This document shows positions 7,044 to 28,903 of a DNA stretch of 64,000 nucleotides, one piece after another. Below the pieces are notes generated by a model. That model worked only from the letters and a program-made list of their open reading frames with translations, was not told the DNA's origin and did not search any database. Position numbers and translations under genes: made by a program. The stretch spans positions 248,001 through 312,000 of the forward strand of contig WOUP01000003.1 in the NCBI GenBank assembly GCA_009772895.1, in the 5' to 3' direction. Positions within the stretch are counted from its first letter, which is position 1. Every line of letters begins with the position of its first letter. The DNA comes from Puniceicoccaceae bacterium 5H. Its GTDB lineage: Bacteria > Verrucomicrobiota > Verrucomicrobiia > Opitutales > Oceanipulchritudinaceae.

Positions 7044-7616
7044 ATGGATGCGTTACCGGACATCGAGCTTTGGTCCAGGATCAGGAATGCTGATGCTGCG
7101 GCCCTGGAGCTCCTGTTTACCCGCCACTATGAGCGGCTTTGCGCCTTTGCTACTCGCATTGTGAGAAAACCGGACGTGGCGGAGGAAGTCGTCTCGGATG
7201 TATTTGTAAACGTCTGGGAGAAGAGGCGCAAACTCAACATCCAGACAAATGTGCGCGCCTACCTCTACACTGCCGTGCGCAACCGGTGCCTGAATCAGCT
7301 CGCCAGCCGACGCAACGCCTACGAATCGATCGACGACCAGGCGGAGCAGGTAGTCGACCAACGCCATGATGCGGCGCAAGGCATGGTGCAGAAAGAGGTG
7401 GTGGCCGAGGTGGAAGCCATGATCCAGAGCATGCCGCCCCGACGCCAGCTGATCTTCCGCATGAGCCGGATCGATGGCCTGAAATACAAGGAGATCGCCC
7501 AGATTCTCGAGATCTCGGTCAACACGGTGCAAAACCAGATGGTCGAGGCGGTGCGCCATATCGCCAGTTTTTACGACCCGGATGCGCTGCGCTCGACGGT
7601 GCGCGATTCGGGCTAA
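7044..7616 (+). CDS. ECF-type RNA polymerase sigma factor
   Basis: 190 residues containing sigma region 2 (LFTRHYERLCAFATRIV, then AEEVVSDVFVNVW and the Asn-Arg-Cys-Leu-Asn segment) and sigma region 4 (MPPRRQLIFRMSRIDGLKYKEIAQIL, then SVNTVQNQM). The short linker and lack of regions 1 and 3 make it an extracytoplasmic-function sigma of the FecI-like group that is often controlled by FecR. The gene stands alone between divergent arsC and convergent alkaline phosphatase. The only FecR in the window lies about 15 kb away, at the far end of the phosphatase/TonB locus, so they may be partners, though separated. No Shine-Dalgarno is visible. Confidence 0.9.
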   Translation: MDALPDIELWSRIRNADAAALELLFTRHYERLCAFATRIVRKPDVAEEVVSDVFVNVWEKRRKLNIQTNVRAYLYTAVRNRCLNQLASRRNAYESIDDQAEQVVDQRHDAAQGMVQKEVVAEVEAMIQSMPPRRQLIFRMSRIDGLKYKEIAQILEISVNTVQNQMVEAVRHIASFYDPDALRSTVRDSG

Positions 7617-7620
7617 GGAA

Positions 7621-7642
7621 AAGGCTCCCCGGAGGGAGCCTT
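7621..7642. terminator. Hairpin between convergent sigma and phosphatase genes
   Basis: AAGGCTCCC and GGGAGCCTT form a perfect nine-base stem around a CGGA loop, four bases after the sigma stop and nine bases beyond the phosphatase stop. There is no long T run on either strand, so it is a plausible but not textbook bidirectional terminator. Confidence 0.6.
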
Positions 7643-7651
7643 GAGCGTGGG

Positions 7652-9052
7652 TTAAAGGGCCATTACGTCACGGATGACGTGGTGGAGTTGCCAGTTTTCC
7701 AGGTAGGCGGGGATGGCCTCGCTGCCCGGGCCCCAGGTCGCCAGTTCCACGAGGTCGCCGGTGTGGTTATGCGTGGTCCAGTTGACGGCGTAGTAGTCAT
7801 AGAGCGGGTTGCGCAAGTAGATGCCCAGCAGTTGTGGGTCCCCCTGCCAGGCACGGAACGCTTGCTCCATCTGGTCTTGCAGTTGGTCCGAAGGCTCCAT
7901 GCCCCAGTTCTCGACCAGCTGGCGGCGCAGTTCGCCCGGCGTGGCGTCCTTGGGGGCGTTGTCCGCCAGGTATTCGTAGCTGTGCCGGGTCTTGCCCAGG
8001 CGCATGAACATCGGCGTGGAGAGGTTGTAGTCGTGCCCGTAGCCGTTGACGACAAACCCTCCGGTGCCGTGGTCGGTGGTGACGATGACCAGCGTGTCTT
8101 CGTTTTCTTCGGCAAAGCGGCGACCGAGGGCGATACAGCGGTCGAACTCCATTTGCTCCGGGAGGATCGCGGCCGGGTCGTTGTTGTGGGCGGCGTGGTC
8201 CACCCGGCCCGCTTCGACCTGCAGGAGAAAGCCCTCCTTGCTGCCCTTGAGGCGGTCGAGCGCGACCGTCATCATTTCCTCGAGAGAGGGCGTCACGCGG
8301 TCGATCTCGCTGTCGTGCAGGCGGTCGATCATGTAGGGCACGTGGCTATTGGAGAAGGTGCCGAGCAGCTTGCCCTTGGCCTTGCGCGTTTGGGCCAGTT
8401 CATCGCGCGTGCGCACCACCGTGTAGTCTTGCTTGCGCGCCTGGGCAAACACGTCCTTGCCATCCTTGCGTTTGGCAGGGTCGAAGTGACGCGAACCGCC
8501 ACCGAGCAGCACATCCACCTCGCGCTGCAAGTATTGCTCGGCGATGTCGTCTTCCATGTCGCGGTGGATGACGTTGGTGGCAAAGCCGGCGGGCGTTGCG
8601 TGCGTGATGCGGGCGGTGGTCACCAGGCCCAGCTTCTTGCCGGCCTGGCGCCCGTAGGTGTAGAGCGGTGTGAGCTCCTTGCCGTCGGCGTCGACGTTGA
8701 TGCGGCGGTTCGGGATGCGCTTGCCACCGCCCCAGGAGCTGGAGGCGGCCGCGGAGTCGGTCACGATGCTGCTGGCGGAGTGGGTCTCCATCAGGCTGCG
8801 GCGGGCCACCGCGTCGCTGTAGAGGTGCATCCACTGTGAATCGCGGTCCTGGGTCTTGTTCAGCCAGGTGTTGGTGGCGGCGAGGGTGCCGTTGGTCATG
8901 CCGTCCACGACCAGAAAGATCAGGTTCTTGGCCTTCGCGCGCCCGCTGGTGATGGCGGGGGCGGCACCGAGCCGGGAAGCGCCCAGCAGCAAGCTGCCGA
9001 GCCCGGTGGCCTGGAGAAAGTGGCGGCGGGAGAATTTGTGTGTCTTCGACAT
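7652..9052 (-). CDS. Alkaline phosphatase (PhoA-type), Tat-exported
   Basis: 466 residues from the ATG at 9052, which is chosen because a twin-arginine signal (SRRHFLQATG, then a hydrophobic stretch LGSLLLGASRLGAA) follows directly. A metal-binding VVDGMT motif follows. The nucleophile is Ser100 in VTDSAAAS. Later metal ligands sit in EAGRVDHAAHNND and in VIVTTDHGTGG. The enzyme hydrolyses phosphomonoesters in the periplasm or outside the cell, releasing phosphate. Tat export suggests that it folds with its metals in the cytoplasm. It is the first of four genes in this locus linked to phosphoester breakdown or uptake. Confidence 0.92.
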   Translation of the reverse strand: MSKTHKFSRRHFLQATGLGSLLLGASRLGAAPAITSGRAKAKNLIFLVVDGMTNGTLAATNTWLNKTQDRDSQWMHLYSDAVARRSLMETHSASSIVTDSAAASSSWGGGKRIPNRRINVDADGKELTPLYTYGRQAGKKLGLVTTARITHATPAGFATNVIHRDMEDDIAEQYLQREVDVLLGGGSRHFDPAKRKDGKDVFAQARKQDYTVVRTRDELAQTRKAKGKLLGTFSNSHVPYMIDRLHDSEIDRVTPSLEEMMTVALDRLKGSKEGFLLQVEAGRVDHAAHNNDPAAILPEQMEFDRCIALGRRFAEENEDTLVIVTTDHGTGGFVVNGYGHDYNLSTPMFMRLGKTRHSYEYLADNAPKDATPGELRRQLVENWGMEPSDQLQDQMEQAFRAWQGDPQLLGIYLRNPLYDYYAVNWTTHNHTGDLVELATWGPGSEAIPAYLENWQLHHVIRDVMAL

Positions 9053-9387
9053 CGGGAAGAGGGTGGGGGAGCCATCCGTTCTGATGGCGCGCTCAAGTTC
9101 GTGTTGCTGAGGCCCGGACGCGGAGGGTCGAGCTGCGAGTCGGACCTTCGCGTCATGCTGGGGCCAGAAGAAGTACAGTGGGGATTTTGACGGATCTTCT
9201 GGGTTTAAGACGATCCAGGCTAGAATAGCGAATCGGCCATGTCGAGATGCCCCAGTGGCCACAAATGTTAAATACGCTTAACGTCTTTGTGTCGTTTTTG
9301 TGGCATCGGTGCGGCTGGTGGCACACGGGAGCCCGGCGCCGTGGGCGCGGGCTCCGTGCGGAGGCGACAATCAGGACCGCCAACGTC
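9053..9387. other. Gene-free interval upstream of the alkaline phosphatase
   Basis: 335 bases with no credible gene on either strand. It must hold the phosphatase promoter, but no clear -35/-10 pair or Pho-box repeat stands out. A GC-rich hairpin with a one-base bulge (9324-9335 with 9348-9358) sits about 30 bases after the end of the long phosphoesterase gene and may mark its transcript end, although no T run follows. Confidence 0.5.
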
Positions 9388-12297
9388 TTATTGCGGCGGC
9401 AGGTAATAGGTCCAGCCGGTGGCCTCCGTATACATCCAGGGCCAGTATTCCGGGCAGATGTAATACCAGGCGGCGCTCTCCTGATGGTAAGCCCAGCTGG
9501 TGCCCGGAGCCTGGGTCGGCTCGAACCAGACCCAGCCGCGCCCCTGCACGTTGACCCACGGCCAGTAACCGGCGTAGATCCAGCCCCAGTAATTGCTGTA
9601 GTGCCACGGGGCGGCCACGTAGTCCGCGCCCGGCACGTAGGCGATCAGCTTTTGATCGGCCTCCGGCAGGGGTTCTGCTGCAGGCTGGAAGGCGTCTTCG
9701 TCCAGCACGAGGGCCCAGGCAAAGCTGCCGTCTTCGAGGGTATTGCCCGGCATGTCGTAGCAGTAGACGCGGTACCGGCCTTCGCCGAGCGGCTCGTAAA
9801 CGAGGTGGTTGTCGGCGGCCTCGGTGTAGGTGCCGTCGGAGTCTGGAACGATGGAGTTGAGCAGCAGCGTTGCGGCGTCGGCCACGTCCTCTAGCTCGAT
9901 GAGGTAGGTACCGGTGCCCTCCCGTGTAATGGTGGCACTCTCGTAAGACCGCAGGGACTGGGCCGCGCTGCCGTCGTAGATGCCGCCGGTGAGCCCGGGC
10001 GTGTCGGCCGGCAGGTAGACGAAGCTGAACGGCTGCAGTTCGCTCTGCGACATGTAGTCCATATACGTCGTCTGCGGGAAGAAGTCGGCTTCCCCGGAAG
10101 TATGGTAGCCAACGCTGACGATGGCGGGATCGGTGTTCCCGATGTTGGCGAAGATCAGGCCCGCATTGGCGTCGACCGCCGGAGAGGAGAGGCGCACGAC
10201 ACCGCCGGTGCCCAACGGGGCGGCAGCGTCCGTGGCCAGACCGTTTTCTTCGATCAGCACGCCATCCTTGCCCACGTGACCGGCGACAAAGCCGCTGGCA
10301 AAGGGGAAGTAGGCGTAGCTGATCGAGGTGTTGAGGCCGACGAAGGCGCGGGAGCCCGTGTATTGCACCTCAAAGCTGAGGCCGCTGCGCAGGCCGTGGT
10401 GAAAACCGCTGAAGGCGTCGTAGTAGGCGCGATCGATGCCCACGCTAGCCAGTTTCGTCGCGTCCTGACCGCCGCGCACGGTCGCAAGCAGGACGCCGTC
10501 GCTGTATTGCAGTGGGTCGTCCATCCACGAGACGTTTTCATAGACGCCACCGCCGCCGTAGCGCAGGTAAGAGCGCTCGGTGCGGCGCACGTTCAGGCGG
10601 CCCGTATCGTCCATGTTCTGGCTGATACCGGGCACGCCCATCGCATCGCCCGGGTTCAGCGCGCCCAGGGTGATCTGGCCGGCCTGGACTTCCGTGAAGG
10701 CCGCGAGACGCACCCGCTGGAGTTCGCGCATGCTCAACGCCCGCTGGTAGAGGGAGGCGTCGTGGATCTGGCCGCTGAACTGCACGGAGCCCAGCTTGAG
10801 GATCGAGATGGGCTCGAACGCGACCTGGGCATCGGCCTCGCCCGTCAGCTCGCCGTCGACGTAAAAGTGGATCTGGTCGGCATCCTGGCTGACGCTGAGG
10901 TAATACCAGCGATTGGCTAGCAGCTCGGCCCGGTCCGTTGCCAGCGTTTCGCCGTTTGCGCGCAGCTCCAGACGGCTGCCGTCGCTCGAGGGCGCGGCAA
11001 AGACCTGGAGCGGCCCCAGTTGCAGGGCTTCGACGGCGGCATCGCTGCCCAGCATGCTCGCGTCGAAGCGCAGCCAGGTCGAGAGCGCCCATTCGGCGGA
11101 TGGCGTGGCGACCTGGCCCTTGATGACCTGGCCGTCACGGATCTCGTGGCTCAAGCCTGCCTCGATTCGGGAGACGAGGAAGAGCCCATCGTCCAGGGTG
11201 CCGTCGTTGGGCACCGGGCGCAGCGCGCTGTGGCCATAGAGGTCGAAGTGGTAGGCCGGGGCGGCTTCCTCCAGCGCCTCGCGTCGGCTGGCGGGCAAGA
11301 CGGATTCGAAGAAGGGAAACTGGTAGTTCAGATCCGGATCGAAGATCTCCTCATCGAGGTAGGGGGAGAAGGTCTCGACGGCGGCGAGGTTGCCGTCGGC
11401 GGAAAGGTTCACGGTCTGCATCCAGCCGTTGCCGCTGCCCGTCCAGCCCTGGAAGTCGGTCAGGCGCTCGCGCACCACCTGGCGCTCCGGCCCGATGCTC
11501 ATGCGGCGACCGACGCCGTTGGAGCCCACGTGGCCGCTGTAGACGAGCGCGACCTGCGGGTGCTGCTTGATCACCTTGCGCCACATGTCTTGCCCGTCGT
11601 TGGCGCCCTCGGGATCCGCGGCGATGATGGGGTAGTCCTTGGGGCTGCCCTGCGAGTTGTCCGGGTATTCGTGCGCGAGCAACTGGCTATCGTAACGCGC
11701 GTTGTCGCGGAAGAAATAAGCGTGGGTGATGATGATCGTGCGGTAGGCCGGGTGCTCGGTCAGGACCTGGTCCAGCCAGGTCATGACGGCATCGCGCGGC
11801 GCCCATTCGAGCGTCACCACCATCCAGGTGCGATCGCCGGTGTCGATAAAGTGGTAGGAGTTGGCGAGGTCGCCCGGGGTCATGCTACCGCCCACGGTCG
11901 GCTGCGTGTAATAGGGGCTGCCTTCGCCGAAATACTCGGGCTTGGTGAAGTAGGAGACGCGTCCGTTGTCGTCCCCGTCGTGGTTGCCGACCGCCAGCAC
12001 GTAGGGGACCTTGCCGTTGAGGGCGTCGAAGGCGCCGCGTGCACCGGTCCACTGGTGGTCGTTGTTATCGTTCTGGGTGATGTCGCCGAGCTGAAGGGTC
12101 GCGGCGATGTTGTCGCTCTCGGCGTGGTTGTAGATCCAGCTGATCTGGGCCAGGAGCTTCTGGTAGTTGCCCGGCTCGTAGTTGTTATAGTAATACTGGA
12201 TGTCCGGGAGGATTGCCAGCGAGTACGGCGCTTCGTCTGCAGCGCGGCAGAGCGGGCTGAGCAGGGTCAGCAGGCCGAGGGAAAGGTGCAATTTCAT
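9388..12297 (-). CDS. Secreted calcineurin-like phosphoesterase with LamG-like domain and Trp/Tyr-rich C-terminus
   Basis: 969 residues. A signal peptide (MKLHLSLGLLTLLSPLCRA) is followed by a metallophosphoesterase domain: Asp32 in PDIQYY, Gly-Asp71-72 in QLGDITQND, GNHD at 104-107, His192 in THAYF, and GH at 255-256. Residues about 370-545 look like a LamG/concanavalin-type lectin domain (VEALQLGPLQVFA, WYYLSVSQD, FYVDGELTGEA). Residues about 550-885 are of unknown type. The last 83 residues (887-969) hold 11 Trp and 13 Tyr in loose repeats such as WGWIYAGYWPW. It probably cleaves phosphoesters outside the cell while attached to a polymer or the surface. The tail resembles that of the neighbouring lamin-tail protein. 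Substrate unknown. Confidence 0.85.
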   Translation of the reverse strand: MKLHLSLGLLTLLSPLCRAADEAPYSLAILPDIQYYYNNYEPGNYQKLLAQISWIYNHAESDNIAATLQLGDITQNDNNDHQWTGARGAFDALNGKVPYVLAVGNHDGDDNGRVSYFTKPEYFGEGSPYYTQPTVGGSMTPGDLANSYHFIDTGDRTWMVVTLEWAPRDAVMTWLDQVLTEHPAYRTIIITHAYFFRDNARYDSQLLAHEYPDNSQGSPKDYPIIAADPEGANDGQDMWRKVIKQHPQVALVYSGHVGSNGVGRRMSIGPERQVVRERLTDFQGWTGSGNGWMQTVNLSADGNLAAVETFSPYLDEEIFDPDLNYQFPFFESVLPASRREALEEAAPAYHFDLYGHSALRPVPNDGTLDDGLFLVSRIEAGLSHEIRDGQVIKGQVATPSAEWALSTWLRFDASMLGSDAAVEALQLGPLQVFAAPSSDGSRLELRANGETLATDRAELLANRWYYLSVSQDADQIHFYVDGELTGEADAQVAFEPISILKLGSVQFSGQIHDASLYQRALSMRELQRVRLAAFTEVQAGQITLGALNPGDAMGVPGISQNMDDTGRLNVRRTERSYLRYGGGGVYENVSWMDDPLQYSDGVLLATVRGGQDATKLASVGIDRAYYDAFSGFHHGLRSGLSFEVQYTGSRAFVGLNTSISYAYFPFASGFVAGHVGKDGVLIEENGLATDAAAPLGTGGVVRLSSPAVDANAGLIFANIGNTDPAIVSVGYHTSGEADFFPQTTYMDYMSQSELQPFSFVYLPADTPGLTGGIYDGSAAQSLRSYESATITREGTGTYLIELEDVADAATLLLNSIVPDSDGTYTEAADNHLVYEPLGEGRYRVYCYDMPGNTLEDGSFAWALVLDEDAFQPAAEPLPEADQKLIAYVPGADYVAAPWHYSNYWGWIYAGYWPWVNVQGRGWVWFEPTQAPGTSWAYHQESAAWYYICPEYWPWMYTEATGWTYYLPPQ

Positions 12298-12328
12298 GGA
12301 ATGCGGGTTTCGAAAAAGGGAAAGAAAA

Positions 12329-12371
12329 GGCCCGTTAACGGCCTGGGTCGTAGTGTCTGCGTTAACGGGCC
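12329..12371 (-). terminator. Terminator of the lamin-tail gene
   Basis: GGCCCGTTAACG (12329-12340) and CGTTAACGGGCC (12360-12371) form a perfect 12-base stem with a 19-base loop, downstream of the stop at 12413. On the minus strand a TTTTCTTT tract follows. It ends the TonB receptor/lamin-tail transcript and means that the long phosphoesterase gene (start 12297) probably has its own promoter. Confidence 0.8.
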
Positions 12372-12412
12372 CTTGGAGACTATGAACTATCGATATCTCT
12401 ATGTAAGGTGGC

Positions 12413-15118
12413 TTAGCGCACGGCCATCCAGCTGCTGGTGTTGAAGTTCCAGGCAGTCGGATACCAGCTCAGCTCGGTGTAGAGCCAGGCTTCCATGTCG
12501 TAGCTGTAGACGTAGACCTGCCCGCCGGCGCTGGCATCTTCGGAGATGTAGAGCCAGCTACCGGTGTCATAGCTGTAGACGATCGGGGCGTAGGACGTAT
12601 AGAGCCACTGGAACGAGTTGCTCCAGAAGAGCGTTTCGCTGTATTGGAAGCCGTCGGTCAGGATCGCGGCGAGCCATTCGGGCTGGACGACGCCATTGCC
12701 GGAGAAGGGCGTGCCGTCGGCCATCGTGCCGGGCGAGATGCTGAACATCGTGCCGGAGGCCGGGAAGTGCAGCGAGTTGAATTCGCCCGTGATGTCGGGG
12801 CTACGGGTGATCGACATACCTTGATTGGCCTGGGTGGAGTCGTAGGTCACCTCGTCGATCACGTAGTTGTAGGGGTTCGTCAGGCGAATCGTGCCGTTGG
12901 AGTCCTCGGGCAGATTGACGCCCACGCCCCCGTTGTTGGCCACTTGCAGGATCGCGCCGGCGGTCAGGGTGTCGGCTTCGGCCACCATGTCGGCTTCGGT
13001 GCGCTCGCTGCCGCCGGTGCCGCCAAAGATCACGATCGCGCCCTGGTCGGCCACCAGGGTGCCTTCAGGGAACACGTGCACGAGCTGCTGCCCGTTGGTG
13101 TTGTTCTCGGCAAAGGCGTAGAGCTTCCAGTTGCTGAGGTCGACGGTGCTGCCGGTGTTGTTGACGAGTTCGATGAACTGGTCGTCGATCGCCTGTTCCA
13201 GCACGCCGTCGCCATTCGGGTCGAGGCCGGAGCCCTGGACGCCGCTAAAGGCTTCGTTCACCACCACATCGTAGGGGTCTTCGGCCACGTCGGTGATGGT
13301 CATGTTGACCATACTGGGCACGACTTCTTCGGCACGGACGACCACCGTGATGTTGGCGTCGCCATCGAGCAGACCGTCGTCGTGAGCCGAGATCTCGAAG
13401 GTGCCGGAGGTTTCGCCTTCCGGGATCGTGATCGAGCTGGTGGAGAGGCTGACTTCGTCGGGCTCCAGGCCGTTGGCGCCCTCGGTCATGCCGTTGGTGG
13501 TGATCTCGATGGGCAGACCGCCGGCGGGGGCGGGGTTTTCCAGCGTGACGGTGGCGACGGCGGCGGTCGCGTCGTCTTCAGCCATCGTGTCCTTGTCGAC
13601 GCTCAGGCTGAGGGTGTTGCTGAAGGTGCCGAAAGGGGTGCCGTCGATGTGCGTGCCTGGCGAGAAGAGCACGCCGTTGACGTTTTCGTGCAGCTGATAT
13701 TCGCCCGTGATGTCCGGGTTGCGCGTGACGGCCTGGTAGACGCCCGCGAAGTCGGCCGTGTAGTCGTAGGACAACACTTCGGCCCCGCCGGAGCTCAGGA
13801 TGATCACGTCGCCCGTGTCGGCATAGCCGAAGTTGCCGGCCGTGGCCGTTTGCACCTCGGCGCCGCCAAAGAGGCCGTTCGGGCTACCGCCGGCAAACAC
13901 CACGATCGCGCGGCCCGGCTTGAGGATGGTGCCTTCGGGGAAGACGTGGCGCGGGCCCTTGTCGTCGCTCAGGATCCAGCCGGAGAGGTCGATGTTTTCG
14001 GAGTCGTTGTTCACGAGCTCCACAAACTCTTCCTGGCTGCCGTTGCGGACACCGTCGCCGTTGGCGTCGCCCACCAGATCTTCCGGCAGGGAGCCGGGCA
14101 CGCTCGTCATGAACTCGTTCAGGACGATGTTCGGCTTGGCGTCGACATTGACGACGGTCACCGTCGTCTGGTTGGGCGCAAAACCTTCGGTGTTCAGGCT
14201 GATCACGACTTCCTGGTCCCCGTCGAAGCCGTTGTCCGCGACGATCGTCACGGGCACATCGACGCTGGTGAGGCCTTCCGCGATCGTCGCGGTGGCCGGC
14301 ACCTGCACTTCTTCCGTGTTGCTGCTGCTCAGGTCAAAGGTTTCACCGCCCGCGCCTGCCGGGTTGTTGAGGGTGACGGTCAGCGTCGCGGTGTCGCCTT
14401 CATTGTAGGCATCCTGGCTGAACTTGAGGGTGGCGACCTTCAGGGCGTCGTCGGCGACCACGCGCAGGTTGTCGAAGGCATACTCTTCGTTGCCGCCGTT
14501 CAGGTTCATCTTGATGCGCAGCTGCATGGTGGTGCCGATGCGCGTCACAGGCCATTCGAAGCTAGAGAAATTGTTCGTCAGGCGAGCGTCGTCGAGGCTG
14601 GCGACGGTGTCTTCGTCGCCGATGAAGTAGCGGCCCGGGGAGTTGGTGCCGGTGCCGCGGAAACCGCCGATGGTCTCCCAGGCGCCGTCGTCGATCCTGG
14701 CCTGCAGCAGGAAGGCATTGTCGAACTCGAACTCGTCTTCGCCCTGCGCCGCTTCCATGCGGATCTTGAAGTCGCCCAGCCCGTCGATCGAGAAGGACTC
14801 GAAGGTGATGCGCGCTTCGTCGGACTCCAGTTCGGTGGTGCCGGTGAAGCCTTCGGCATCCAGGTCGCGACCGCCGAAGAAGTAGGAGCCGCTGATGCTG
14901 CCGCCGGTGGTGCGGGTGCCGCTGGAGAGGTCCTGGCGGCGGGCAAAGAAGTCGCTGGCGCCGTCGTCAAAGCCGTTCTCGAGGGTGTAGCGAGCATCGA
15001 GGCCGTCGGTTTCGAAGTCTTCCTGGAAGGCAGTGACTTCTGCCGCGTGCAGGCCGATCGTCGCCAGGAAGAGAGTGGAGAGGGAGCCGAGAGCGGCTCG
15101 GTGGAGATGCTTTTTCAT
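12413..15118 (-). CDS. Secreted two-module Calx-beta/lamin-tail (LTD) protein with aromatic-rich C-terminus
   Basis: 901 residues with a signal peptide to about residue 26. Residues 27-222 are a beta-rich domain seen in accessory regions of extracellular proteins. Two copies of a composite module follow: Calx-beta-like (about 228-325) then lamin-tail (about 329-495, VLNEFMTSV, EEFVELVNN, LSGWILSDD, HVFPEGTIL), and Calx-beta-like (about 503-612) then lamin-tail (about 618-805, VVNEAFSGV, DQFIELVNN, LSNWKLYAF, HVFPEGTLV). Each ends with DITGE and a G-T-DGTPF block. Residues 828-901 are a Trp/Tyr-rich tail with repeated WLY motifs. No catalytic motif is seen. It starts 34 bases after the TonB receptor stop, so it is probably co-transcribed. 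Substrate capture or surface display is inference. Confidence 0.8.
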   Translation of the reverse strand: MKKHLHRAALGSLSTLFLATIGLHAAEVTAFQEDFETDGLDARYTLENGFDDGASDFFARRQDLSSGTRTTGGSISGSYFFGGRDLDAEGFTGTTELESDEARITFESFSIDGLGDFKIRMEAAQGEDEFEFDNAFLLQARIDDGAWETIGGFRGTGTNSPGRYFIGDEDTVASLDDARLTNNFSSFEWPVTRIGTTMQLRIKMNLNGGNEEYAFDNLRVVADDALKVATLKFSQDAYNEGDTATLTVTLNNPAGAGGETFDLSSSNTEEVQVPATATIAEGLTSVDVPVTIVADNGFDGDQEVVISLNTEGFAPNQTTVTVVNVDAKPNIVLNEFMTSVPGSLPEDLVGDANGDGVRNGSQEEFVELVNNDSENIDLSGWILSDDKGPRHVFPEGTILKPGRAIVVFAGGSPNGLFGGAEVQTATAGNFGYADTGDVIILSSGGAEVLSYDYTADFAGVYQAVTRNPDITGEYQLHENVNGVLFSPGTHIDGTPFGTFSNTLSLSVDKDTMAEDDATAAVATVTLENPAPAGGLPIEITTNGMTEGANGLEPDEVSLSTSSITIPEGETSGTFEISAHDDGLLDGDANITVVVRAEEVVPSMVNMTITDVAEDPYDVVVNEAFSGVQGSGLDPNGDGVLEQAIDDQFIELVNNTGSTVDLSNWKLYAFAENNTNGQQLVHVFPEGTLVADQGAIVIFGGTGGSERTEADMVAEADTLTAGAILQVANNGGVGVNLPEDSNGTIRLTNPYNYVIDEVTYDSTQANQGMSITRSPDITGEFNSLHFPASGTMFSISPGTMADGTPFSGNGVVQPEWLAAILTDGFQYSETLFWSNSFQWLYTSYAPIVYSYDTGSWLYISEDASAGGQVYVYSYDMEAWLYTELSWYPTAWNFNTSSWMAVR

Positions 15119-15152
15119 AGCGTAGATATTGCGATAGCAGTTAAAGGGAGGG

Positions 15153-18100
15153 TTAGAGGCGCCAGCTGGCTCCCACGAACCAGAAGGGGCCGGTGTAGCG
15201 GATGTAGTCGATGCGGCTGGCGTCGCCGCGGTAGAAGCGGATCGGCTCGTCCGTCAGGTTGCCGCCCTCGACGAAGACGTTGAAGTTCTGGTTGACGCGG
15301 TAGCGCACCAGCAGGTCGATGCGCTCGTGGTCGTCGGCGTAGGTGTCGAACGAGTCCGTTTCAGCCCCCGCATTCACGAGGTTCTGGATCGCGGAGGGGC
15401 CGGCCTGGACGTCCTCCAGATATTCGCTGCGGTAGACGTAGCTCAGGCGCACGAGCAGGCCGTGCTTCTCGTAGTAAACCGAGAGATTGCCGCTCTGGTC
15501 GGCCTGCTTGAACAGCGGAACCTTTTCGTGGTAGCGCTCTTCCAGCAGCAGCTCGACTTCGGAATCGACCAGGGTGAAGTTGGCATTCACGCCCAGACCG
15601 TCGAGGCCCCATGGCAGGAAGCCCAGTTTGCGGTCGAAGGTAAACTCTGCGCCCATCAGCTTGCCGCTGCCCGAGTTTTCCTTGCGCGAGGTCGACCAGG
15701 TCGTCGACAGCGCGCCGTTACCCGAGACGTATTTCTGCGCGATGGCTTCCATCTCGGGGCTTTCGGTCGCATCGACATCCGTGCGGGTGGCATCGTAGAT
15801 GGCGCCGTCGAGCTGCTTGTAGAACAGGTTGACCGCAAACAGGCCGACGTTCTTCATGTAGCGCTCCAGCGTCACGTCGTAGTTGACCGACGTCATGGGC
15901 TCGAGGTCGGCATTGGGCAGCTCGATGCTGCGCCCGAAGATGCCGCCGTTGATGTCGGGGATCTCGTAGGGCACCAGATCCGTGAAGGTGGGGCGGGTGA
16001 GGGACTTCGTCACCGCCAGGCGCAGGACCCAGTCTTCGCCGATGTCGCGGCGGATGTGCAAGGCCGGCAGCAGGTCGTCGTAGCTGCGTTCGCTGCGCAC
16101 CCAGTCGCTATAGGCGGAGGCATCTTCGTAATACTGCCACAGGGCCGGGCTGACAAACGCGGTCCCGTTCGGGCGCGTGTCGATCACGTTGTTTTCGAAC
16201 GCGTTTTCGGTGTGTTCCCAGCGGGCGCCTGCGAGGAAGTTCCACTTGCGGAACTTCAGCGTCTGCATGAAGTAGGCCGCCGTGATGTCCTCTTCCGCCT
16301 TATAGTTGCGCAAGACGGCGTTGAGCACGTTGTAGGTGATGTCGTCCGGCGACTGGTCCAGCGTGACTTCATCCGGCGTATGGCGCAGGAAGTTGAGCGT
16401 CTTTTCCTGGTCGAAGCGCGGGCCGAACGCGTAGCTCGTATCGGCGCTGCTGAGAAACTCATAGCTCAGGTCGCCCGCGAAATACGCATCGGCCAGGCTC
16501 AGCTGGGGCAGGGGATCCGTATCGACATCGCTGTAGCGGTTATAGTCGCGGCTGTATTCCTTGTCGCGGAAGTCACCGGCGCCACCAAAGGCGGACGTCG
16601 TCTCGAGGCCGAAGAGGTGGTAGTCGAGTTCGGAATTGAGCTCAAAGCCCTGGCGCTTGTCGTTACTGTAGTAGACGTTGTCGTAAATCTGGCCGTGGTC
16701 GCGGTTCAGGATGAAGGTTTCCGGATCCTCCAGCTGATTCAGCGCGTTGTTGATGGTCATCTGCGGGGCATAGCCATCTTCCGGATCGAGCTGCGTGATG
16801 AAGGACAGGTTCTGGGAGTCCAGCAGCACGCCGATGTTCGTCCATTCCTTGTCCGCTTCAGAGGTGTAGAGCTTGTAGTCGAGCGAGATCCAGTCGGCAA
16901 AGAGGTGCTCGCCCCCAAACTGATAGGTTTCGATCTGGTCGTCGGTATCGACTTGCTGGAAGCGCTTTTTCGTGTCGCCGTCCGCGATGTAGCGCTCGTA
17001 GTTGAGCGTCTCCGGGTTGAAGTAGATTTCGCCCAGAGCTTCAGCCTCGGGGTAGTAGAGCGGCTTCGACTCCGCCATGCGCGCTTGCACGAGCGGGTCG
17101 GAGAGGTCGTAGCCGAGCTTTTCTGCCGTCTGTTGGTTGAAAACGAGGGAGCCACGGTAGGCGACGGAGGATCCGGCGCTGGTGTTCAGCTCGAGTTCCT
17201 GCAACGTTTCCGTGTCGTTGTACTTGTTGTAGGAGCCTGAGACATACCAGCGGTGGTTGTCGTTGAGCTGGAACTCCAGACGACCGCCCACAGCCAGACG
17301 CTCCCGCTCGATTTCGTAGTCTTCGAAATCGAGCCCGTTGAGCCCGAAACCGCGCGGGTAGGGGCCGAGGTCCTCGCCGTTGAAGGTGTAGCCCGAGGGG
17401 TTGGAAGAGCGCAGGTTCGGCGTCGCCTGGGTGGTCCAGCCGCCGCTGCGCAGCGTCTCCGAGCCCCGGTTGTCGAGGGACTGGTTGAAGGAGACTTGCA
17501 GGCCGATCTTGCGCTCGCTGTCGCCCAGATCGATGACGTCGCCGTAGACGCCGTTGTAGCGCCAACTGTTGTCGTCGACCAGGTCGTACTTGCCGTAGGC
17601 GCCTTCGAGGGAGGCAAAGCGTTCGCCGCGGTCGAGGGCCGAGCGGGTGACGAGGTTGACCGTGCCGCCGATGCTGCCGGCGGGCTGATCGGGCGTCCAC
17701 GTCTTGGTGACTTCGATGGACTCGAGCTGGTCGGTCGAAATGATGTTGAGCGCGGTGCTGCGGCCGTTCATCTCCGGCGTGGCGACGTTGACGCCGTCGA
17801 TCATCACCTGATTCCAGTCGGGATTGGCCCCGCGGATGACGACGAACTTGCCTTCACCCTGGCTGTCGACGACGGTCACGCCCGGCTGGCGCTGGAGGGC
17901 TTCCGCCGCATTGCGGTCGACGAACTGGCCCATCGCGTCGGCGGAGACCACGTTCACGAGATTCTGCGACGACTTCTGGATGTTGAGCGCCTTGGCGCGA
18001 CCGACGAGGGAGCCCTCGACGGCAAAGTCCTCGAGTTCGAACACCTGCTCGGTGGTGATGGTCAGGTTCAGGTCGACGTCCTGCTCCGCATCGTCGATCG

Positions 18101-18377
18101 TCACCCGCTGGCTCGCATCGGGCAGGCCGACGGCCGAGGCACGGACGGTATAGGTGCCGGGTTCGAGACCGTGCAGGGCATACTCGCCCCCGCGGCTCGT
18201 GAAAGTGGATTGGCCCGTTTCGACCACCGTGACTTCGCCCCCGTTGAGGTAAAGGTCGTTGATGTCGTCGTAGACGGTGCCGCTGATATCGGCGGCAGAA
18301 GCGACCGAGGCGCAGCACAGTCCCAGGGTCGTGCACAGGCCCAGCGAGCGCTGTCGGAGTTTGGTCAAAGCATTCAT
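15153..18377 (-). CDS. TonB-dependent receptor with N-terminal carboxypeptidase-regulatory-like domain
   Basis: 1074 residues. The signal peptide is followed by a domain at about 30-115 (ISGTVYDDINDLYLNGGEVTV, YALHGLEPGTYTVRASAVG) of the carboxypeptidase-regulatory type found on many Bacteroidota and Verrucomicrobiota receptors. A plug follows (AMGQFVDRNAAEALQRQPGV, FVVIRGANPDWNQVMIDG, IGGTVNLVTR), then a 22-strand-type beta barrel ending in FWFVGASWRL with the usual terminal aromatic/Arg-Leu. It imports a ligand across the outer membrane using TonB energy. The lamin-tail gene follows within 34 bases, and phosphoesterase genes lie on both sides, so a phosphorylated ligand or released product is likely. 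No SusD-like lipoprotein is present. Confidence 0.9.
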   Translation of the reverse strand: MNALTKLRQRSLGLCTTLGLCCASVASAADISGTVYDDINDLYLNGGEVTVVETGQSTFTSRGGEYALHGLEPGTYTVRASAVGLPDASQRVTIDDAEQDVDLNLTITTEQVFELEDFAVEGSLVGRAKALNIQKSSQNLVNVVSADAMGQFVDRNAAEALQRQPGVTVVDSQGEGKFVVIRGANPDWNQVMIDGVNVATPEMNGRSTALNIISTDQLESIEVTKTWTPDQPAGSIGGTVNLVTRSALDRGERFASLEGAYGKYDLVDDNSWRYNGVYGDVIDLGDSERKIGLQVSFNQSLDNRGSETLRSGGWTTQATPNLRSSNPSGYTFNGEDLGPYPRGFGLNGLDFEDYEIERERLAVGGRLEFQLNDNHRWYVSGSYNKYNDTETLQELELNTSAGSSVAYRGSLVFNQQTAEKLGYDLSDPLVQARMAESKPLYYPEAEALGEIYFNPETLNYERYIADGDTKKRFQQVDTDDQIETYQFGGEHLFADWISLDYKLYTSEADKEWTNIGVLLDSQNLSFITQLDPEDGYAPQMTINNALNQLEDPETFILNRDHGQIYDNVYYSNDKRQGFELNSELDYHLFGLETTSAFGGAGDFRDKEYSRDYNRYSDVDTDPLPQLSLADAYFAGDLSYEFLSSADTSYAFGPRFDQEKTLNFLRHTPDEVTLDQSPDDITYNVLNAVLRNYKAEEDITAAYFMQTLKFRKWNFLAGARWEHTENAFENNVIDTRPNGTAFVSPALWQYYEDASAYSDWVRSERSYDDLLPALHIRRDIGEDWVLRLAVTKSLTRPTFTDLVPYEIPDINGGIFGRSIELPNADLEPMTSVNYDVTLERYMKNVGLFAVNLFYKQLDGAIYDATRTDVDATESPEMEAIAQKYVSGNGALSTTWSTSRKENSGSGKLMGAEFTFDRKLGFLPWGLDGLGVNANFTLVDSEVELLLEERYHEKVPLFKQADQSGNLSVYYEKHGLLVRLSYVYRSEYLEDVQAGPSAIQNLVNAGAETDSFDTYADDHERIDLLVRYRVNQNFNVFVEGGNLTDEPIRFYRGDASRIDYIRYTGPFWFVGASWRL

Positions 18378-18398
18378 GAGAGAGAGAAAATTCGAAAC

Positions 18399-18422
18399 GG
18401 GCCTTCTCCGGAGAGAAGGCCC
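18399..18422 (-). terminator. Hairpin after the shorter phosphoesterase gene
   Basis: GGGCCTTCTC and GAGAAGGCCC pair perfectly around CGGA, 25 bases after the stop at 18447 and before the TonB receptor start at 18377. On the minus strand an interrupted T-rich tract (ATTTTCTCTCTC) follows at a short distance. It is probably a terminator or a partial one inside the locus. Confidence 0.6.
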
Positions 18423-18446
18423 GGAAACCTCAGGTCGTTTGTTACG

Positions 18447-19568
18447 TTACTTGCGCAACTTGCTGCGCTCTCCGGTGCGAATGTTCACACTGAATTGTTC
18501 CCACTCACCCTCTTGGTAGGGGCTGGTTTCCTCATCCTTGTCCATCGCGTAGAACGGGGAGAAGGTGCGGAACTTGATCGTCTCGCCGTCGGGCTGGAAC
18601 TCCATCAGGCGCATCCAGCCGTGGCCGCCGGCGGCGGTGCCCCAGAGAAACTGCGGGTTGAAGAGGATCTGGTGGACGTAGTTGCCCTCGGCGGTCTGGT
18701 CGACGCGGTAAGAGCTGGCATAGGTCGACTTGCCGTGTTCCTTGCCGTTCTCGTCCACCTGCTTGGCCCCATAGTGGCCGTTAAGGGTGAGGATAAAGTT
18801 GTCGTGCTGGTTGATCAGGTGCTGCCACACCTCCTCGGCGGAGTAGATCTGCTCCTTTTTCGCGATGGGGTAGGCGGCCGCCCAGCCATGCTCCGGCTTG
18901 TGCACCGAGCGAAGGGCCATGCCGTCGTCGGTGATCTGGGAGGTGTAGTAGTCGACGAAATCGTGCGTCGCCAGAATCACTTTGCGGTCGGGATACATCG
19001 AGACGACCTCGTCGGCCCACTCCACGACTTCCGGACGCGTGGCAAACTCGAGCGTGAGCACCATCAGGTGCCACTGGCCGTAGTCGTAAAAGTAGTAGGC
19101 GTTTTCGAGGTGCCCGGCTTCGTAGACGCCACCGAGGGCGTTGGCAGTCAGCGGGTTGTCGCCGGCCTGGAAGTGTTCGTTAAAGTAGGAGAAGTCGCGC
19201 TCGGCTGCCTTGCCGCCCGGGCCCATGTCGTGGTTGCCCACGGCGAGGAAGTAGGGCATCTCGCCGGCGAGAACTTCGATACATTCCTCTGCCCGGCTCC
19301 ACTCGGTCGGCTGATTGTTGTCCGTGATGTCACCGGTATGGACCATGAACTGGATGTTGCGCTCGTCCTGGTAGCGCTTGATCCAGTCGGTCAGTTTGAG
19401 AAAGACACCGATTTCGCCGTGCGGCTCGGTGTAGTACTGCGTGTCGGTCAGCCACGCGACAGAAAAGGCGCCGTCGTCGACGGGGGTCTCGATGGCGTCG
19501 GAAGCCGCGCCCCAGAGCGGGGAAACAGCACTCAAGAGCAAGAAGAGAGAGGTCAGCTTTGTCTTCAT
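18447..19568 (-). CDS. Secreted calcineurin-like metallophosphoesterase
   Basis: 373 residues with a signal peptide (MKTKLTSLFLLLSAVSPLWGA). The metal-binding blocks are Asp42 in LTDTQYY, Gly-Asp79-80 in HTGDITDNN, GNHD at 111-114, a His in ILATHDFVDYY, and Gly-His in LNGHYGAKQ. The D-x-Q-Y-Y first block is shared with the 969-residue protein nearby, so the two belong to one subfamily; this one is the catalytic domain alone. It hydrolyses phosphomono- or diesters outside the cytoplasm. A pair of direct 11-base repeats lies about 95-115 bases before the start. Confidence 0.88.
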   Translation of the reverse strand: MKTKLTSLFLLLSAVSPLWGAASDAIETPVDDGAFSVAWLTDTQYYTEPHGEIGVFLKLTDWIKRYQDERNIQFMVHTGDITDNNQPTEWSRAEECIEVLAGEMPYFLAVGNHDMGPGGKAAERDFSYFNEHFQAGDNPLTANALGGVYEAGHLENAYYFYDYGQWHLMVLTLEFATRPEVVEWADEVVSMYPDRKVILATHDFVDYYTSQITDDGMALRSVHKPEHGWAAAYPIAKKEQIYSAEEVWQHLINQHDNFILTLNGHYGAKQVDENGKEHGKSTYASSYRVDQTAEGNYVHQILFNPQFLWGTAAGGHGWMRLMEFQPDGETIKFRTFSPFYAMDKDEETSPYQEGEWEQFSVNIRTGERSKLRK

Positions 19569-19661
19569 AGGGTCGATATACCCCTTTGGACAAAGCCCCT
19601 GCTAAAAATCTACCCCTCTTCACGCGTGACGTTTAGGTGAACCTCTGTGTCGTCTTTTAAA

Positions 19662-19683
19662 CGTGATTGTTACACGATTGAAA
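19662..19683 (-). promoter_or_regulatory. Two tandem 11-base repeats upstream of the phosphoesterase, Pho-box-like
   Basis: Read on the minus strand, TTTCAATCGTG is followed directly by TAACAATCACG. Seven of eleven positions agree (T..CAATC..G). PhoB is known to bind tandem 11-base direct repeats, so spacing and context in a phosphatase locus suit a phosphate-starvation operator, but the bases do not match the E. coli consensus closely. Confidence 0.3.
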
Positions 19684-19710
19684 CGGTGCTTTTAGGTGTT
19701 CGCAAGGCGC

Positions 19711-22617
19711 TCAATAGTAGTAATTTGCGCCGATCCAAAACGACCTCCCGAAGGCGACGATTTCGTGCAGAAGCTCCTGGTTAGGACCGCGCAACCGCAC
19801 TTTTTTTGAGTTGGTCACATTGCGGACTTCCGCGCGCAGCTCCAGGTGGGAAGAAATTTCATAACGTAGCTGCAGGTCCAGCTGATCAAAGGCGTCCCAA
19901 CTGTAATCATGCCAATACTGGTCCCGGTCGACATAAGCCCGGTACTTACCGGTATAGGTGTAGCCGAGCTGCGCTTCCCAGCGGCCGAGACCGTAAAACA
20001 GCGAGCCGTTCCAAAAGTAGTCGGGCTGCTCCAGCGCGTGGTCGAGGATGCGCTCGCTGCCGTCGTTCATGTTGACGGTCATCTGCCCGTGCAGGAAGGT
20101 CGCGTTGGCGCTTACCCCCAGATGTGCGAGCGGGCCCGGCAGGAAGGTCAGCCGGTTTTGCACGTAACTCAGCTCCAGCCCATAGAGGTGCGTCGACTCG
20201 CCGTTGACCGGCTCCGTGATGGTGTAGTCGATCCCGTTTTCGGTGAACGAGCGCGTGGTGATGTAGATTTCGCCGTCGATCTGCTTTTGAAAGAAGCCCA
20301 CCGAAACCATGGCGTTCGGGCGATCGAAGTAATACTCGAATGCGAGGTCCGCGTTCACTGCTTCGCTCGGCTCCAGCTCTGGGTTGCCGCGCGAGATCGT
20401 CACGCTGCTGCTGCTCGTCTGCTCGATTTGCTGGACGACGAGGTCTTCGATCTGGGGATGCCCAACGGCCTGGCTGACGGCGGCCCGCATGATGAAATGG
20501 GGCGAGATCTCATAGCGGAGGGAGGCGGCGGGCAGCACGCGGCTGTAGTCGTTGCGTGTCACGACCTGCTCGAACCGGCTGTTAGAGCGCTTGAAATTGA
20601 AGACCTCTGTGGTGTTGCCCTCGTATTGGGCGCTGAGCAAAAACGAGGCGCGCCCGAGACCGTAGCGCGCCATCGCGATGCCAGTATCGAGGTCTTCTTC
20701 ATAGACGAAGTCATTCAGCAACGAGTCGATCGCGCTGGTGCCGGCGATGTATTGGAAGCGCTCCGGTTCGGCTGCGAAGAGTTGCTGAAAGGCGGCGAAA
20801 TCGAGAAAGATGAACGGCTCGTCGCGATTGGGCGGCACGTAATAAGTCGGATCGTAGGCATCGGCCACGGTCACCGGGTTGGACGATGTCGTGTAATAAA
20901 GGTCGCGATCGTAAGCATAGTCTCGATGCGTCTTTTCGCGGGTCACGCCCAGATAAAAACCCCAACCCCGGTGTTGCGGCTCCATGTGGTAACTGAGCTT
21001 CAGCTGCCCCGTGTAGATGTCTTCATCGCTGTCGCGCTGGAGGGATTCGAAGGTATCGAGCTGGTAGTTGGCCGGTTCGAGGAAGTAATCGGGGTGCTCC
21101 AGCTCGTAGCGCGCGATCTGGTGCGACATGTCGTAGCGGTAGGCCAGCTGAGTCGTGGAGGGCGTCGAAAAGCGCGCCGTATCGTTGTCGGTAAAGTTTT
21201 CTTCCGCCGCCGAATAGCCGACCGCCGTACGGATCTCGAGGTCGAAGGGGGTGGTATAGCGGGCGTGCAGGCTGGTGCCGTAGTTGGCGCGAAAGATGGG
21301 GTAGTCGGTGAACTGGACCACCGCTTCCCCCTCCGCGATACGGCCCGTGGTGGGCGTTTGCTCGCTGACGGTCCCTCGATTGTAGAGGTGGTGCACGAAG
21401 CGGTCCTCGTCGTCGAACTGCGAGAAGTAATACCCGGTGAGCTTGGCCTCGAAGTTGGGGTGGGGCCGCGACTCCAGCTTCAGCAAGTGCCCCCGGCGCG
21501 TGACCGTGTTGTTGTAGACGAACCAGTCGTAGTGGTGGGTGACGGGGTAGCCGTTGCCCTGGTCGGGATTCTCGACGCGAAAGCCGCCATCGTTGTACCA
21601 GCGGTAGGAGTTCTGGTTGGTCTTCTCCTCGTCGCGGACTTTCTGGTAGTAGGTGAAGCCGTAGAGCAGGCCGAACATGTCGCGCGGCCCGAAGCGCTCC
21701 GTCACGGTCATCTCCGTCCGCCACGAAAGGCCCGTATTGCCCGGGACGGCCTGGGAATCGAAGTAGCCGCCCATGCCCAGGATGCTGAGCTGTGGCAGGT
21801 CGGTATCGAAGGGGCTGCGCGTGACGAGGTTGACGTTGCCGCTGATGCTGGCGTCGGTCTGGTCGGGCTGCACGCTTTTGGTCACCTCGAGGCGCAACAC
21901 GGCGTTGGTGGGGATCGCTTCGAGGTTCACGCGCCGGCGGGAGTAGTCCTGCGCGGCAATCGGGATCCCGTCGATCGTGGCGTTGAGGTAGTCCGGCTGC
22001 ACGGCCCGGATCGAGACGTAACGCGACTCGTCTTCGTCGAGGATCGACATCACGCCGGGCACGCGTTTGAGGGCATCGGCCACGTTGAGGTCGGGCAACT
22101 GTCCGATTTCGTCTGCCGAGATGGTCTCCATCAAGCCGAGCGCCTGGTGCTTGCGTTGCATGGAGACCGCGTTGGCGTAGGCGAAGCTGTTGACGGGAAA
22201 CGGCGCGAGCTCGATCACTGATGGCGCCCGCAGTCGGAGCTTCGGCGGCTCGGGGGCCGCGGCCTGATCCGGGTGGTAACACTCCGGGTCGATCACTTCT
22301 GGAGCGCCCGGGCGGATGGCGATCTGGTTGCCGATGCGCTTGAACTGGAGCTGCCCGAATTCCGCGAGCGCCTCGAGCACGTCGGCGACGGTAGCGGCGT
22401 GCGCGGGCAGCTCGATGGGCGCATCCAGGTCGATCTCTTCCTCTACGTAGGAAAAGTGGTAGTGGGTCTGGGCCTCGATTTCACGCAATGCTTTCCCCAG
22501 GCGTTCATATTCCGGCGGAACATAAACGGGGGTGTCGCAGACGGAGGCATACAAGGCTCCCGCAAAGGGAACATGCGCCACCGCAATGAGAGAGAGAAGG
22601 CCAGCGATAGACTTCAT
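19711..22617 (-). CDS. TonB-dependent receptor with N-terminal STN (signal-transducing) domain
   Basis: 968 residues from the ATG at 22617. The frame stays open to a GTG at 22638, but MKSIAGLLSLIAVAHVPFAGA makes the better signal peptide. An STN domain follows (YERLGKALREIEAQTHYHFSY, VADVLEALAEFGQLQFK), which in FecA-like transducers contacts a FecR anti-sigma factor. The plug has IGQLPDLNVADALKRVPGV, DAS-ISGNVNLVTR and similar blocks, and the barrel ends in SFWIGANYYY. The FecR gene lies 55 bases upstream, so this is the signalling receptor of a cell-surface regulation system. The ligand is unknown; the context suggests a phosphorus compound. Confidence 0.9.
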   Translation of the reverse strand: MKSIAGLLSLIAVAHVPFAGALYASVCDTPVYVPPEYERLGKALREIEAQTHYHFSYVEEEIDLDAPIELPAHAATVADVLEALAEFGQLQFKRIGNQIAIRPGAPEVIDPECYHPDQAAAPEPPKLRLRAPSVIELAPFPVNSFAYANAVSMQRKHQALGLMETISADEIGQLPDLNVADALKRVPGVMSILDEDESRYVSIRAVQPDYLNATIDGIPIAAQDYSRRRVNLEAIPTNAVLRLEVTKSVQPDQTDASISGNVNLVTRSPFDTDLPQLSILGMGGYFDSQAVPGNTGLSWRTEMTVTERFGPRDMFGLLYGFTYYQKVRDEEKTNQNSYRWYNDGGFRVENPDQGNGYPVTHHYDWFVYNNTVTRRGHLLKLESRPHPNFEAKLTGYYFSQFDDEDRFVHHLYNRGTVSEQTPTTGRIAEGEAVVQFTDYPIFRANYGTSLHARYTTPFDLEIRTAVGYSAAEENFTDNDTARFSTPSTTQLAYRYDMSHQIARYELEHPDYFLEPANYQLDTFESLQRDSDEDIYTGQLKLSYHMEPQHRGWGFYLGVTREKTHRDYAYDRDLYYTTSSNPVTVADAYDPTYYVPPNRDEPFIFLDFAAFQQLFAAEPERFQYIAGTSAIDSLLNDFVYEEDLDTGIAMARYGLGRASFLLSAQYEGNTTEVFNFKRSNSRFEQVVTRNDYSRVLPAASLRYEISPHFIMRAAVSQAVGHPQIEDLVVQQIEQTSSSSVTISRGNPELEPSEAVNADLAFEYYFDRPNAMVSVGFFQKQIDGEIYITTRSFTENGIDYTITEPVNGESTHLYGLELSYVQNRLTFLPGPLAHLGVSANATFLHGQMTVNMNDGSERILDHALEQPDYFWNGSLFYGLGRWEAQLGYTYTGKYRAYVDRDQYWHDYSWDAFDQLDLQLRYEISSHLELRAEVRNVTNSKKVRLRGPNQELLHEIVAFGRSFWIGANYYY

Positions 22618-22672
22618 GCGAAGCGCGTTCAGAAACACTCTGAAAGCACTTCAGCCGACAAGGTCAAGCAGA

Positions 22673-23692
22673 TCAGCGTACCAGATGGATCGCGGTGACG
22701 TCGTCCGCGTCGCGTTCCACCTCATACTGGGCGTTGGCCGAATAAGTCAGCGCCTCCAGGATCACCCAGATGTCGTCCTGCCCGAATTTGCCAGTGATGC
22801 GGCGTCGCGCGAGGTCCGGATCGTCGACTGAGACGTCGATCCCGTAAAACCGGCTGAGTTCGCGGGCCACTTGAGAGAGGGGAGTGTTGCGGAAGACGAA
22901 ATCGCCGTCCTTCCAGGCCAGGATCTCGGTGGATTCAAAGCTGCCGATGGAAGCTTGGCCTGCCGTCTTTTCGAGCTTCAGCTGCTGCTCGGGCTTCAGA
23001 TACGTGGACACCGCCGCGCCCTCCGCGTGGGATTTCACTTCCACCTTGCCCTCGAGCAGGGAGACTTCGGCCCTGCCTTCATCGTCGTAGTTGCGCACGT
23101 TGAAGACCGTGCCGGTCACCACGACGTCCAGATCGTCCGTCTGCACGATAAAGGGGTGCGCGGCATCGGAGACGACCTCGAAGAAGGCCTCGCCATCCAG
23201 CTCGACCCGGCGCACGCCGGACTCGAATTGCTGGGGATAGCTGAGGGTCGAGCCTGCATTCAACGTCACCCGCGTACCGTCGGCCAGCGAGAGCGCGCGA
23301 TAGCCCTTTTGCAGGTGGACTTCGCGCCAGGCGGTGTCGGTGGCGCTGGAGGGTTGCGCTCTGGTATAGATAAAGTAGCTACCAATGCCCAGGACGGCGA
23401 CGGCCGCCAGTTGGGCCACACGGCGCCAGGGGACCAGGATGAAGGGCACGAGCTTCCGGCGATGCGTAGCTGAGGTGTCGGTACGGTTGCGTAGCTTCTC
23501 CAGCCCGGCGTGGGAATCAAAGTGACCCTCGGGCGGCAGCGCGTCCATCTGGCGCCATCGTTCTTGCAGCCACTCGTATTGGGCGCGGTTTTCGGGGATG
23601 GACAGCAGGGCGTTCAGCTGCGAAATCTCTTCCGAGCTGGCCTCTCCCGAGAAGCGCTTGGCTACCAACGCTGCAAGTTCAGCATCCTTCAT
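22673..23692 (-). CDS. FecR-type anti-sigma factor / periplasmic signal transducer
   Basis: 339 residues. The N-terminal 80 residues are a cytoplasmic anti-sigma region (AALVAKRFSGEASSEEISQLNALL, WLQERWRQMDAL). One membrane helix follows at about 90-110 (VAQLAAVAVLGIGSYFIYT). The periplasmic FecR domain has LADGTRVTLNAGSTLSYPQQF, VELDGEAFFEV, FIVQTDDLDVVVTGTVFNVR. The C-terminal DUF4974-like region (LSQVARELSRFYGIDVSV, ITGKF) is typical of Bacteroidota/Verrucomicrobiota FecR proteins. It would sequester an ECF sigma until the STN receptor just downstream signals. No sigma gene adjoins it, which is unusual; the gene upstream is a divergent LacI regulator. Confidence 0.9.
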   Translation of the reverse strand: MKDAELAALVAKRFSGEASSEEISQLNALLSIPENRAQYEWLQERWRQMDALPPEGHFDSHAGLEKLRNRTDTSATHRRKLVPFILVPWRRVAQLAAVAVLGIGSYFIYTRAQPSSATDTAWREVHLQKGYRALSLADGTRVTLNAGSTLSYPQQFESGVRRVELDGEAFFEVVSDAAHPFIVQTDDLDVVVTGTVFNVRNYDDEGRAEVSLLEGKVEVKSHAEGAAVSTYLKPEQQLKLEKTAGQASIGSFESTEILAWKDGDFVFRNTPLSQVARELSRFYGIDVSVDDPDLARRRITGKFGQDDIWVILEALTYSANAQYEVERDADDVTAIHLVR

Positions 23693-24868: not shown

Positions 24869-24916
24869 GTAGACGGCGTATTGTGCCGCGCTGAATGTCG
24901 TCTTAGCGTGGCGGCG

Positions 24917-26299: not shown

Positions 26300-26345
26300 C
26301 CTCAAGGCTCGTTAGCCCGCTTAGTCTCTTAACTCCCCTAAAAAA

Positions 26346-26373: not shown

Positions 26374-26401
26374 AACTTTATACGGAAATGGGGATCCGCG
26401 G

Positions 26402-28867: not shown

Positions 28868-28903
28868 AGGTCTATGAGAAATGCAGTGGGTTATAAAAAG
28901 GGG

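Follow-up and report, generated by a model that had tools for sequence, protein, structure and literature searches.

The stretch of DNA analysed here, a 64-kb window (G000:C13:248001-312000) within a 4.1-Mb genome, carries between positions 7044 and 23692 seven genes on the minus strand and one convergent gene on the plus strand, which codes for an ECF sigma factor. In the order of transcription, the minus-strand genes code for a FecR-like regulator, TonB receptor 1, a calcineurin-like phosphoesterase (MPE), TonB receptor 2 (TBDT2), a lamin-tail domain (LTD) protein, an MPE with a LamG domain (MPE-LamG) and the alkaline phosphatase PhoA. A previous sequence-only reading had named these families, and profile matches find every one of them in its place, with the exception of the STN domain attributed to receptor 1 (see below).

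In the congener G001 all eight genes are present at 49–73% identity, with order and orientation unchanged, and the 48 kb read around them gave no homologues of the mannan, LacI or arsenic neighbours of the window. In G012, a relative from the same family, a four-gene core (MPE-TBDT2-LTD-MPE_LamG) is retained and is followed by a GDPD gene; a search of genome contigs with the MPE as query returned a single close locus, and this one corresponds to the genome of G012. The conserved co-occurrence in relatives that the sequence-only reading had proposed as a check is thus borne out, and since the eight-gene block is kept in G001 with different flanks, and its core also in G012, it is a real unit and goes beyond a chance neighbourhood.

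On one side (5387-6900, minus strand), the phosphorus block is adjoined by an ACR3 arsenite efflux gene and a gene for a low-molecular-weight phosphatase, possibly an arsenate reductase, an adjacency that is not kept in G001. On the other side (23834-30061) there is a mannan-type locus, comprising a LacI regulator, a 482-aa protein, a GH2 mannosidase-like gene and a GH26 gene.

Putative surface-signalling genes

The first gene of the operon, fecR (22673..23692, minus strand), codes for a FecR-like anti-sigma regulator (PF04773, 9e-18; PF16344, 2e-16) sharing 49% identity with its G001 orthologue. It is followed by the gene for receptor 1 (19711..22638, minus strand; TIGR01782, 427.5 bits; 66% identity in G001), in which the Plug and barrel domains are recognised, and the possible STN signalling N-terminus is below the cut-off (best Pfam E 0.055). 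The ECF sigma factor gene (7044..7616, plus strand; TIGR02985, 158.6 bits, above the cut-off) has an equal convergent position in G001, with 67% identity, and its product would be the partner of FecR. As in Fec-type systems and PUMA3, an ECF sigma factor, a FecR-like anti-sigma factor and a TonB receptor are found in one block. The STN domain of the Fec type is only suggested in receptor 1, and the locus differs from that type in that the sigma gene lies at the opposite, convergent end of the operon instead of adjoining fecR, a split also observed in G001. The Pseudomonas aeruginosa PUMA3 (VreAIR) system depends on PhoB and is therefore a precedent for PhoB control of cell-surface signalling (PMC4971064). 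Its VreA has no barrel, whereas receptor 1 has one.

Sets of sigma, FecR and TonB genes are common in glycan loci, and with the mannan-type genes placed just upstream, FecR and receptor 1 might belong to the LacI, GH2 and GH26 locus, with the phosphoesterase genes as an unrelated neighbour. G001, however, keeps FecR and receptor 1 together with the phosphoesterase block, and homologues of the LacI, GH2 and GH26 genes were not found in the 48 kb read. Because the G001 block stands without mannan genes, we rejected this membership as highly improbable.

Phosphoesterases

The MPE (18447..19568, minus strand; PF00149, 7e-10) is predicted to be secreted. Its structural model (pLDDT 84) matches Lmo2642, GpdQ, a zebrafish dimetal phosphatase, purple acid phosphatases and SMPDL3A with Z scores of 20–22, over 226–277 residues with rmsd 2.7–4.0 and about 14% identity, the differences in Z being too small for a ranking. 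A sequence search of the PDB with the MPE and receptor 2 gave no match. D42, D80, N112, H113, H202 and H265 are conserved in the MPE family, providing the D, GD, GNHD, H and GH motifs of the class III metallophosphoesterases, to which GpdQ, Lmo2642, the purple acid phosphatases and SMPDL3A belong. In contrast to these, and besides the low identity, Q44 replaces the histidine of the DxH motif (DxQ) throughout the family, and GHxH lacks its second histidine, leaving a single GH histidine. The modelled fold thus supports a class III phosphoesterase and hydrolysis of phosphoesters, in terms that do not distinguish a monoesterase from a diesterase.

The second secreted enzyme, MPE-LamG (9388..12297, minus strand; PF00149, 4e-6; PF13385, 5e-11), has orthologues in G001 and G012. 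PhoA (7652..9052, minus strand, in an ORF open to 9262; PF00245, 6e-71) belongs to the PhoA alkaline phosphatases, with the motifs of the catalytic serine and metal ligands intact (TDSA, EAGRVDHAAH, TTDHGTGG and THNHTG), and an orthologue is present in G001. The ATG at 9052 is the likely start, since it precedes the Tat-like signal (SRRHFLQ). Elsewhere on the same contig, at G000:C13:19757-20611 on the minus strand (L012, L027), there is another MPE-type gene for a secreted protein, with an ORF of 935 aa and likewise an orthologue in G001.

The receptor 2–LTD pair

Receptor 2 (15153..18377, minus strand; TIGR01782, 481.9 bits) has a CarboxypepD_reg N-terminal domain, and its gene is separated by 34 bp from that of the LTD protein (12413..15118, minus strand; PF00932, 4.6e-29), a secreted, putatively all-beta protein with two LTD domains (12842-13225 and 13757-14140, minus strand) and a C-terminus rich in tryptophan and tyrosine. 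A profile of the LTD protein gave 13 full-length matches in the 373 genomes of the order that were searched, to which reading of the loci added one tandem copy in G427, making 14 copies in 11 genomes from four families (f1, f4, f5 and f14). A receptor-2 homologue is found directly upstream on the same strand in all 14 cases; in both G437 copies the receptor gene is truncated by the end of its contig. In 12 complete pairs the gap between the two genes ranges from −13 to 86 bp. In these pairs, the receptor and LTD distance matrices are correlated (r 0.91, permutation p 0.0001), which partly reflects shared genome ancestry, and the two trees largely agree, with the main groups common to both. In G427 the whole pair was duplicated as a unit, and two pairs in tandem (G427:C46; L171 6095-18624) are 75–77% identical. 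Receptor 2 and the LTD protein are the core of the locus, and this fixed pair is its most distinctive part; the sequence-only reading had correctly listed the LTD protein and the receptors, without singling out the pair.

The two genes have the arrangement of a SusC/SusD pair, but receptor 2 matches TIGR01782 and none of the SusC models, and its partner matches LTD only. SusD is helical; the model of the LTD protein is nearly all beta, at low confidence (mean pLDDT 60.7), and a fold search with it was ruled out because it is too uncertain. By-eye inspection indicates an ordinary signal peptide in which a lipobox is absent. We found no described pairing of an LTD protein with a TonB receptor in the open-access literature searched, and one may exist elsewhere. 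The C-terminal tryptophan/tyrosine-rich repeats are present on both the LTD (12413-15118) and MPE-LamG (9388-12297) proteins, and are possibly an anchoring or sorting module; the C-terminus of the LTD orthologue of G251 differs at this region.

Genes beside the pair in other genomes

As a raw count, uncorrected for their frequency beside TonB receptors in general, phosphoesterases (MPE, GDPD, EEP, PhoA or PhoD) are present at 11 of the 12 loci with readable flanks. In G003 the pair is preceded by genes for PhnD, PhnC, two permeases, a HAD hydrolase, an MPE and a GDPD, and is followed by LamG and endonuclease/exonuclease/phosphatase (EEP) genes. The same PhnDCE-HAD-MPE set is found in G007, in divergent orientation and with a PLD-like gene, whereas in G012 the pair adjoins PhnDCE, a gene that its sequence marks as PhnM-like, and a dehydrogenase whose closest model is the phosphonate-associated TIGR03366, with a score below the cut-off. 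An MPE-CBM9 gene is located beside the pair in both G251 and G661, the latter also having a GDPD homologue. GDPD homologues, a glycerol-3-phosphate dehydrogenase-like gene and an EEP gene are found in G427 (C18) and G011, a GDSL lipase and an EEP in G437, and a PhoD-EEP fusion, a second EEP, a GDSL lipase and an ECF sigma/FecR pair in G417. At the tandem locus of G427 (C46), no phosphoesterase was recognised among the neighbouring ORFs scanned.

The phosphorus role of the locus is thus supported by gene context. Since the neighbours include GDPDs, glycerol-3-phosphate dehydrogenase and lipases, the substrates are most likely glycerophosphodiesters or phospholipid fragments, and these genes point more to such compounds than to DNA or teichoic acid, two of the polymers that the sequence-only reading had put forward. 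A nucleic-acid substrate deserves attention because LTD domains have been linked to phosphoesterases and to extracellular nucleases such as ExeM (PMC6085458), and a Flavobacterium nuclease with PF00932 is Pi-induced (PMC8115612). The LTD protein could then bind nucleic acid, or the membrane near secreted nucleases, in a module that scavenges extracellular DNA or RNA and imports nucleotides through the receptors, and the EEP-family genes that adjoin the pair in G003, G011, G417, G427 and G437 would fit such a role. The LTD protein resembles ExeM in that secreted LTD domains are tied to phosphoester chemistry, but it has no fused nuclease domain and is paired with a TonB receptor instead. In addition, no EndA/YhcR-type nuclease domain turned up in the genes scanned, nucleic acids are not substrates of GDPD, glycerol-3-phosphate dehydrogenase or GDSL lipases, and EEP proteins, of which the window has none, can also be sphingomyelinase-like. 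We therefore consider nucleic-acid scavenging unlikely, and favour glycerophosphodiesters or phospholipid fragments.

Promoter motif

Around the locus, the E. coli-type Pho box (TGTCAY-N5-TGTCAY) was matched by a single weak site, upstream of phoA, and for this reason pstS promoters were used to build a motif for the lineage. The regions upstream of pstS in G251 and G012 contain YGTMAC units every 11 bp, the periodicity of PhoB boxes, and a score built from these units was applied to 196 upstream regions. Four 11-bp tandem, Pho-box-like units precede the MPE gene (CGTTTC TGTAAC CGTTTA CGACAC; 19642..19685, minus strand), ranking 4th of 196 with p about 0.001 for the region, and four others precede phoA (TGCCAC CGACAC CGTTAA TTTAAC; 9262..9305, minus strand), ranking 1st of 196 with the four-unit score and 5th with the three-unit score. 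Taking both scores, the top five regions are those of G003 TBDT2, G001 MPE, the G012 dehydrogenase, window MPE and window PhoA, the G012 gene having proved to be the phosphonate-associated-type dehydrogenase. The probability that four of the top five fall among the roughly 12 locus regions is about 4e-5, in a set that is not fully independent, because the scoring was settled after visual inspection had already revealed repeats in some of the locus promoters. The loci added later are a cleaner test: TBDT2 and phnD of G007 rank 1st and 2nd of 44, the TBDT2 score exceeding those of all 764,508 background positions, while no clear motif was found in the TBDT2 promoters of G011, G417, G427 and G661. 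Nor was there a clear copy upstream of the pstS-like genes of the window's own genome.

In whole-genome scans, the motif is enriched relative to the reversed pattern in G000 (8 versus 1 sites) and G001 (14 versus 2), but not in G012 (5 versus 4), and few of the sites precede recognisable phosphate genes. The best exact site of the window's genome, and its sole exact triple YGTMAC-N5 site (G000:C15:66233-66260; L122), adjoins a small gene with a TonB_C domain, and a counterpart (G001:C17:29753-29802; L126) adjoins the same gene in G001, with 59% identity between the two genomes, which suggests that a TonB transducer is under the same regulator as the motif-bearing genes. On the basis of these promoter sequences, the locus would be subject to PhoB-like control by phosphate starvation.

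The distribution of the motif also bears on whether the receptor–LTD pair mainly supplies glycerol or carbon from glycerophospho-compounds, the link to phosphorus being secondary. In G427 and G011 the pair is accompanied by glycerol-3-phosphate dehydrogenase-like genes with TrmB or Sugar-bind regulators, and TBDT2 has no Pho-like motif, both of which speak for a carbon role. Against this, in the window's own family the pair is found with PhoA, PhnDCE or PhnM and the pstS-type motif in five genomes, the motif of G012 being weaker (p about 0.001). A primary role in carbon supply is thus very unlikely in our view, and a role in phosphorus acquisition is preferred.

Discussion

We propose that the locus forms a module that acquires phosphorus from phosphodiesters, combining capture by the LTD protein and receptor 2, cleavage by the MPEs and PhoA, and a surface-signalling branch, a reading that we regard as probable. 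The LTD protein would be located outside the outer membrane as the binding partner of receptor 2, in the role that SusD has towards SusC, and together they would catch a phosphodiester at the cell surface. Both of the secreted calcineurin-like enzymes would split this diester, and Tat-exported PhoA would free phosphate from the monoester so formed. The compound or its pieces would cross the outer membrane through receptor 2, perhaps also through receptor 1. The branch that reports the substrate would consist of receptor 1 together with FecR and the ECF sigma factor, layered on phosphate-starvation control via PhoB-like boxes. What we infer in this scheme, from the genes and promoters, is the location at the surface, the physical contact between the partners, the nature of the substrate, the sequence of the steps and the way the genes are regulated. 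The scheme retains the outline of capture, cutting and import given in the sequence-only reading, to which conservation, the phosphorus genes beside homologous pairs and the pstS-derived motif before MPE and PhoA now lend partial support.

The closest comparison is with the phosphate utilisation system (PUS) loci of Flavobacterium, which are controlled by low phosphate and in which SusCD-like receptors (PusCD) are accompanied by PF00149 phosphodiesterases in PUSI or by a PF00245 phosphatase in PUSII; some of these clusters also contain phosphonate genes and transporters that move organophosphorus compounds across the inner membrane (PMC8115612). Here too, a TonB receptor is followed by the gene of a secreted partner with PF00149 or PF00245 enzymes alongside, phosphodiesterase and phosphomonoesterase are co-located (two MPEs and PhoA), and transporter or phosphonate genes are present in G003, G007 and G012. 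In contrast, the partner is an LTD protein and not SusD, the receptor matches TIGR01782 and not a SusC model, ECF sigma and FecR are present, the phylum is different, and for phosphate control the analysis covers a promoter motif, whereas PUS loci are induced by phosphate depletion. In our judgement, the locus works like a PUS locus yet falls outside the SusCD systems, and the LTD–receptor pair is what sets it apart.

More tentatively, the secreted LTD proteins may form a class of their own among the proteins dedicated to partnering TonB receptors, equivalent to SusD in function but built on an unrelated, all-beta plan, and so allow Verrucomicrobiota to capture phosphodiesters, probably glycerophosphodiesters or phospholipid fragments, at the surface; we see this as a real possibility, somewhat short of an even chance. 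PUL-like phosphorus loci have been reported from Bacteroidetes, as SusCD systems, and the role of bacterial LTD proteins has been described as not yet elucidated (PMC6085458). If the proposal is true, the receptor–LTD pair would mean that another phylum has arrived at a like form of scavenging at the cell surface by way of another partner protein, and bacterial LTD proteins would gain a directly testable function in nutrient capture.
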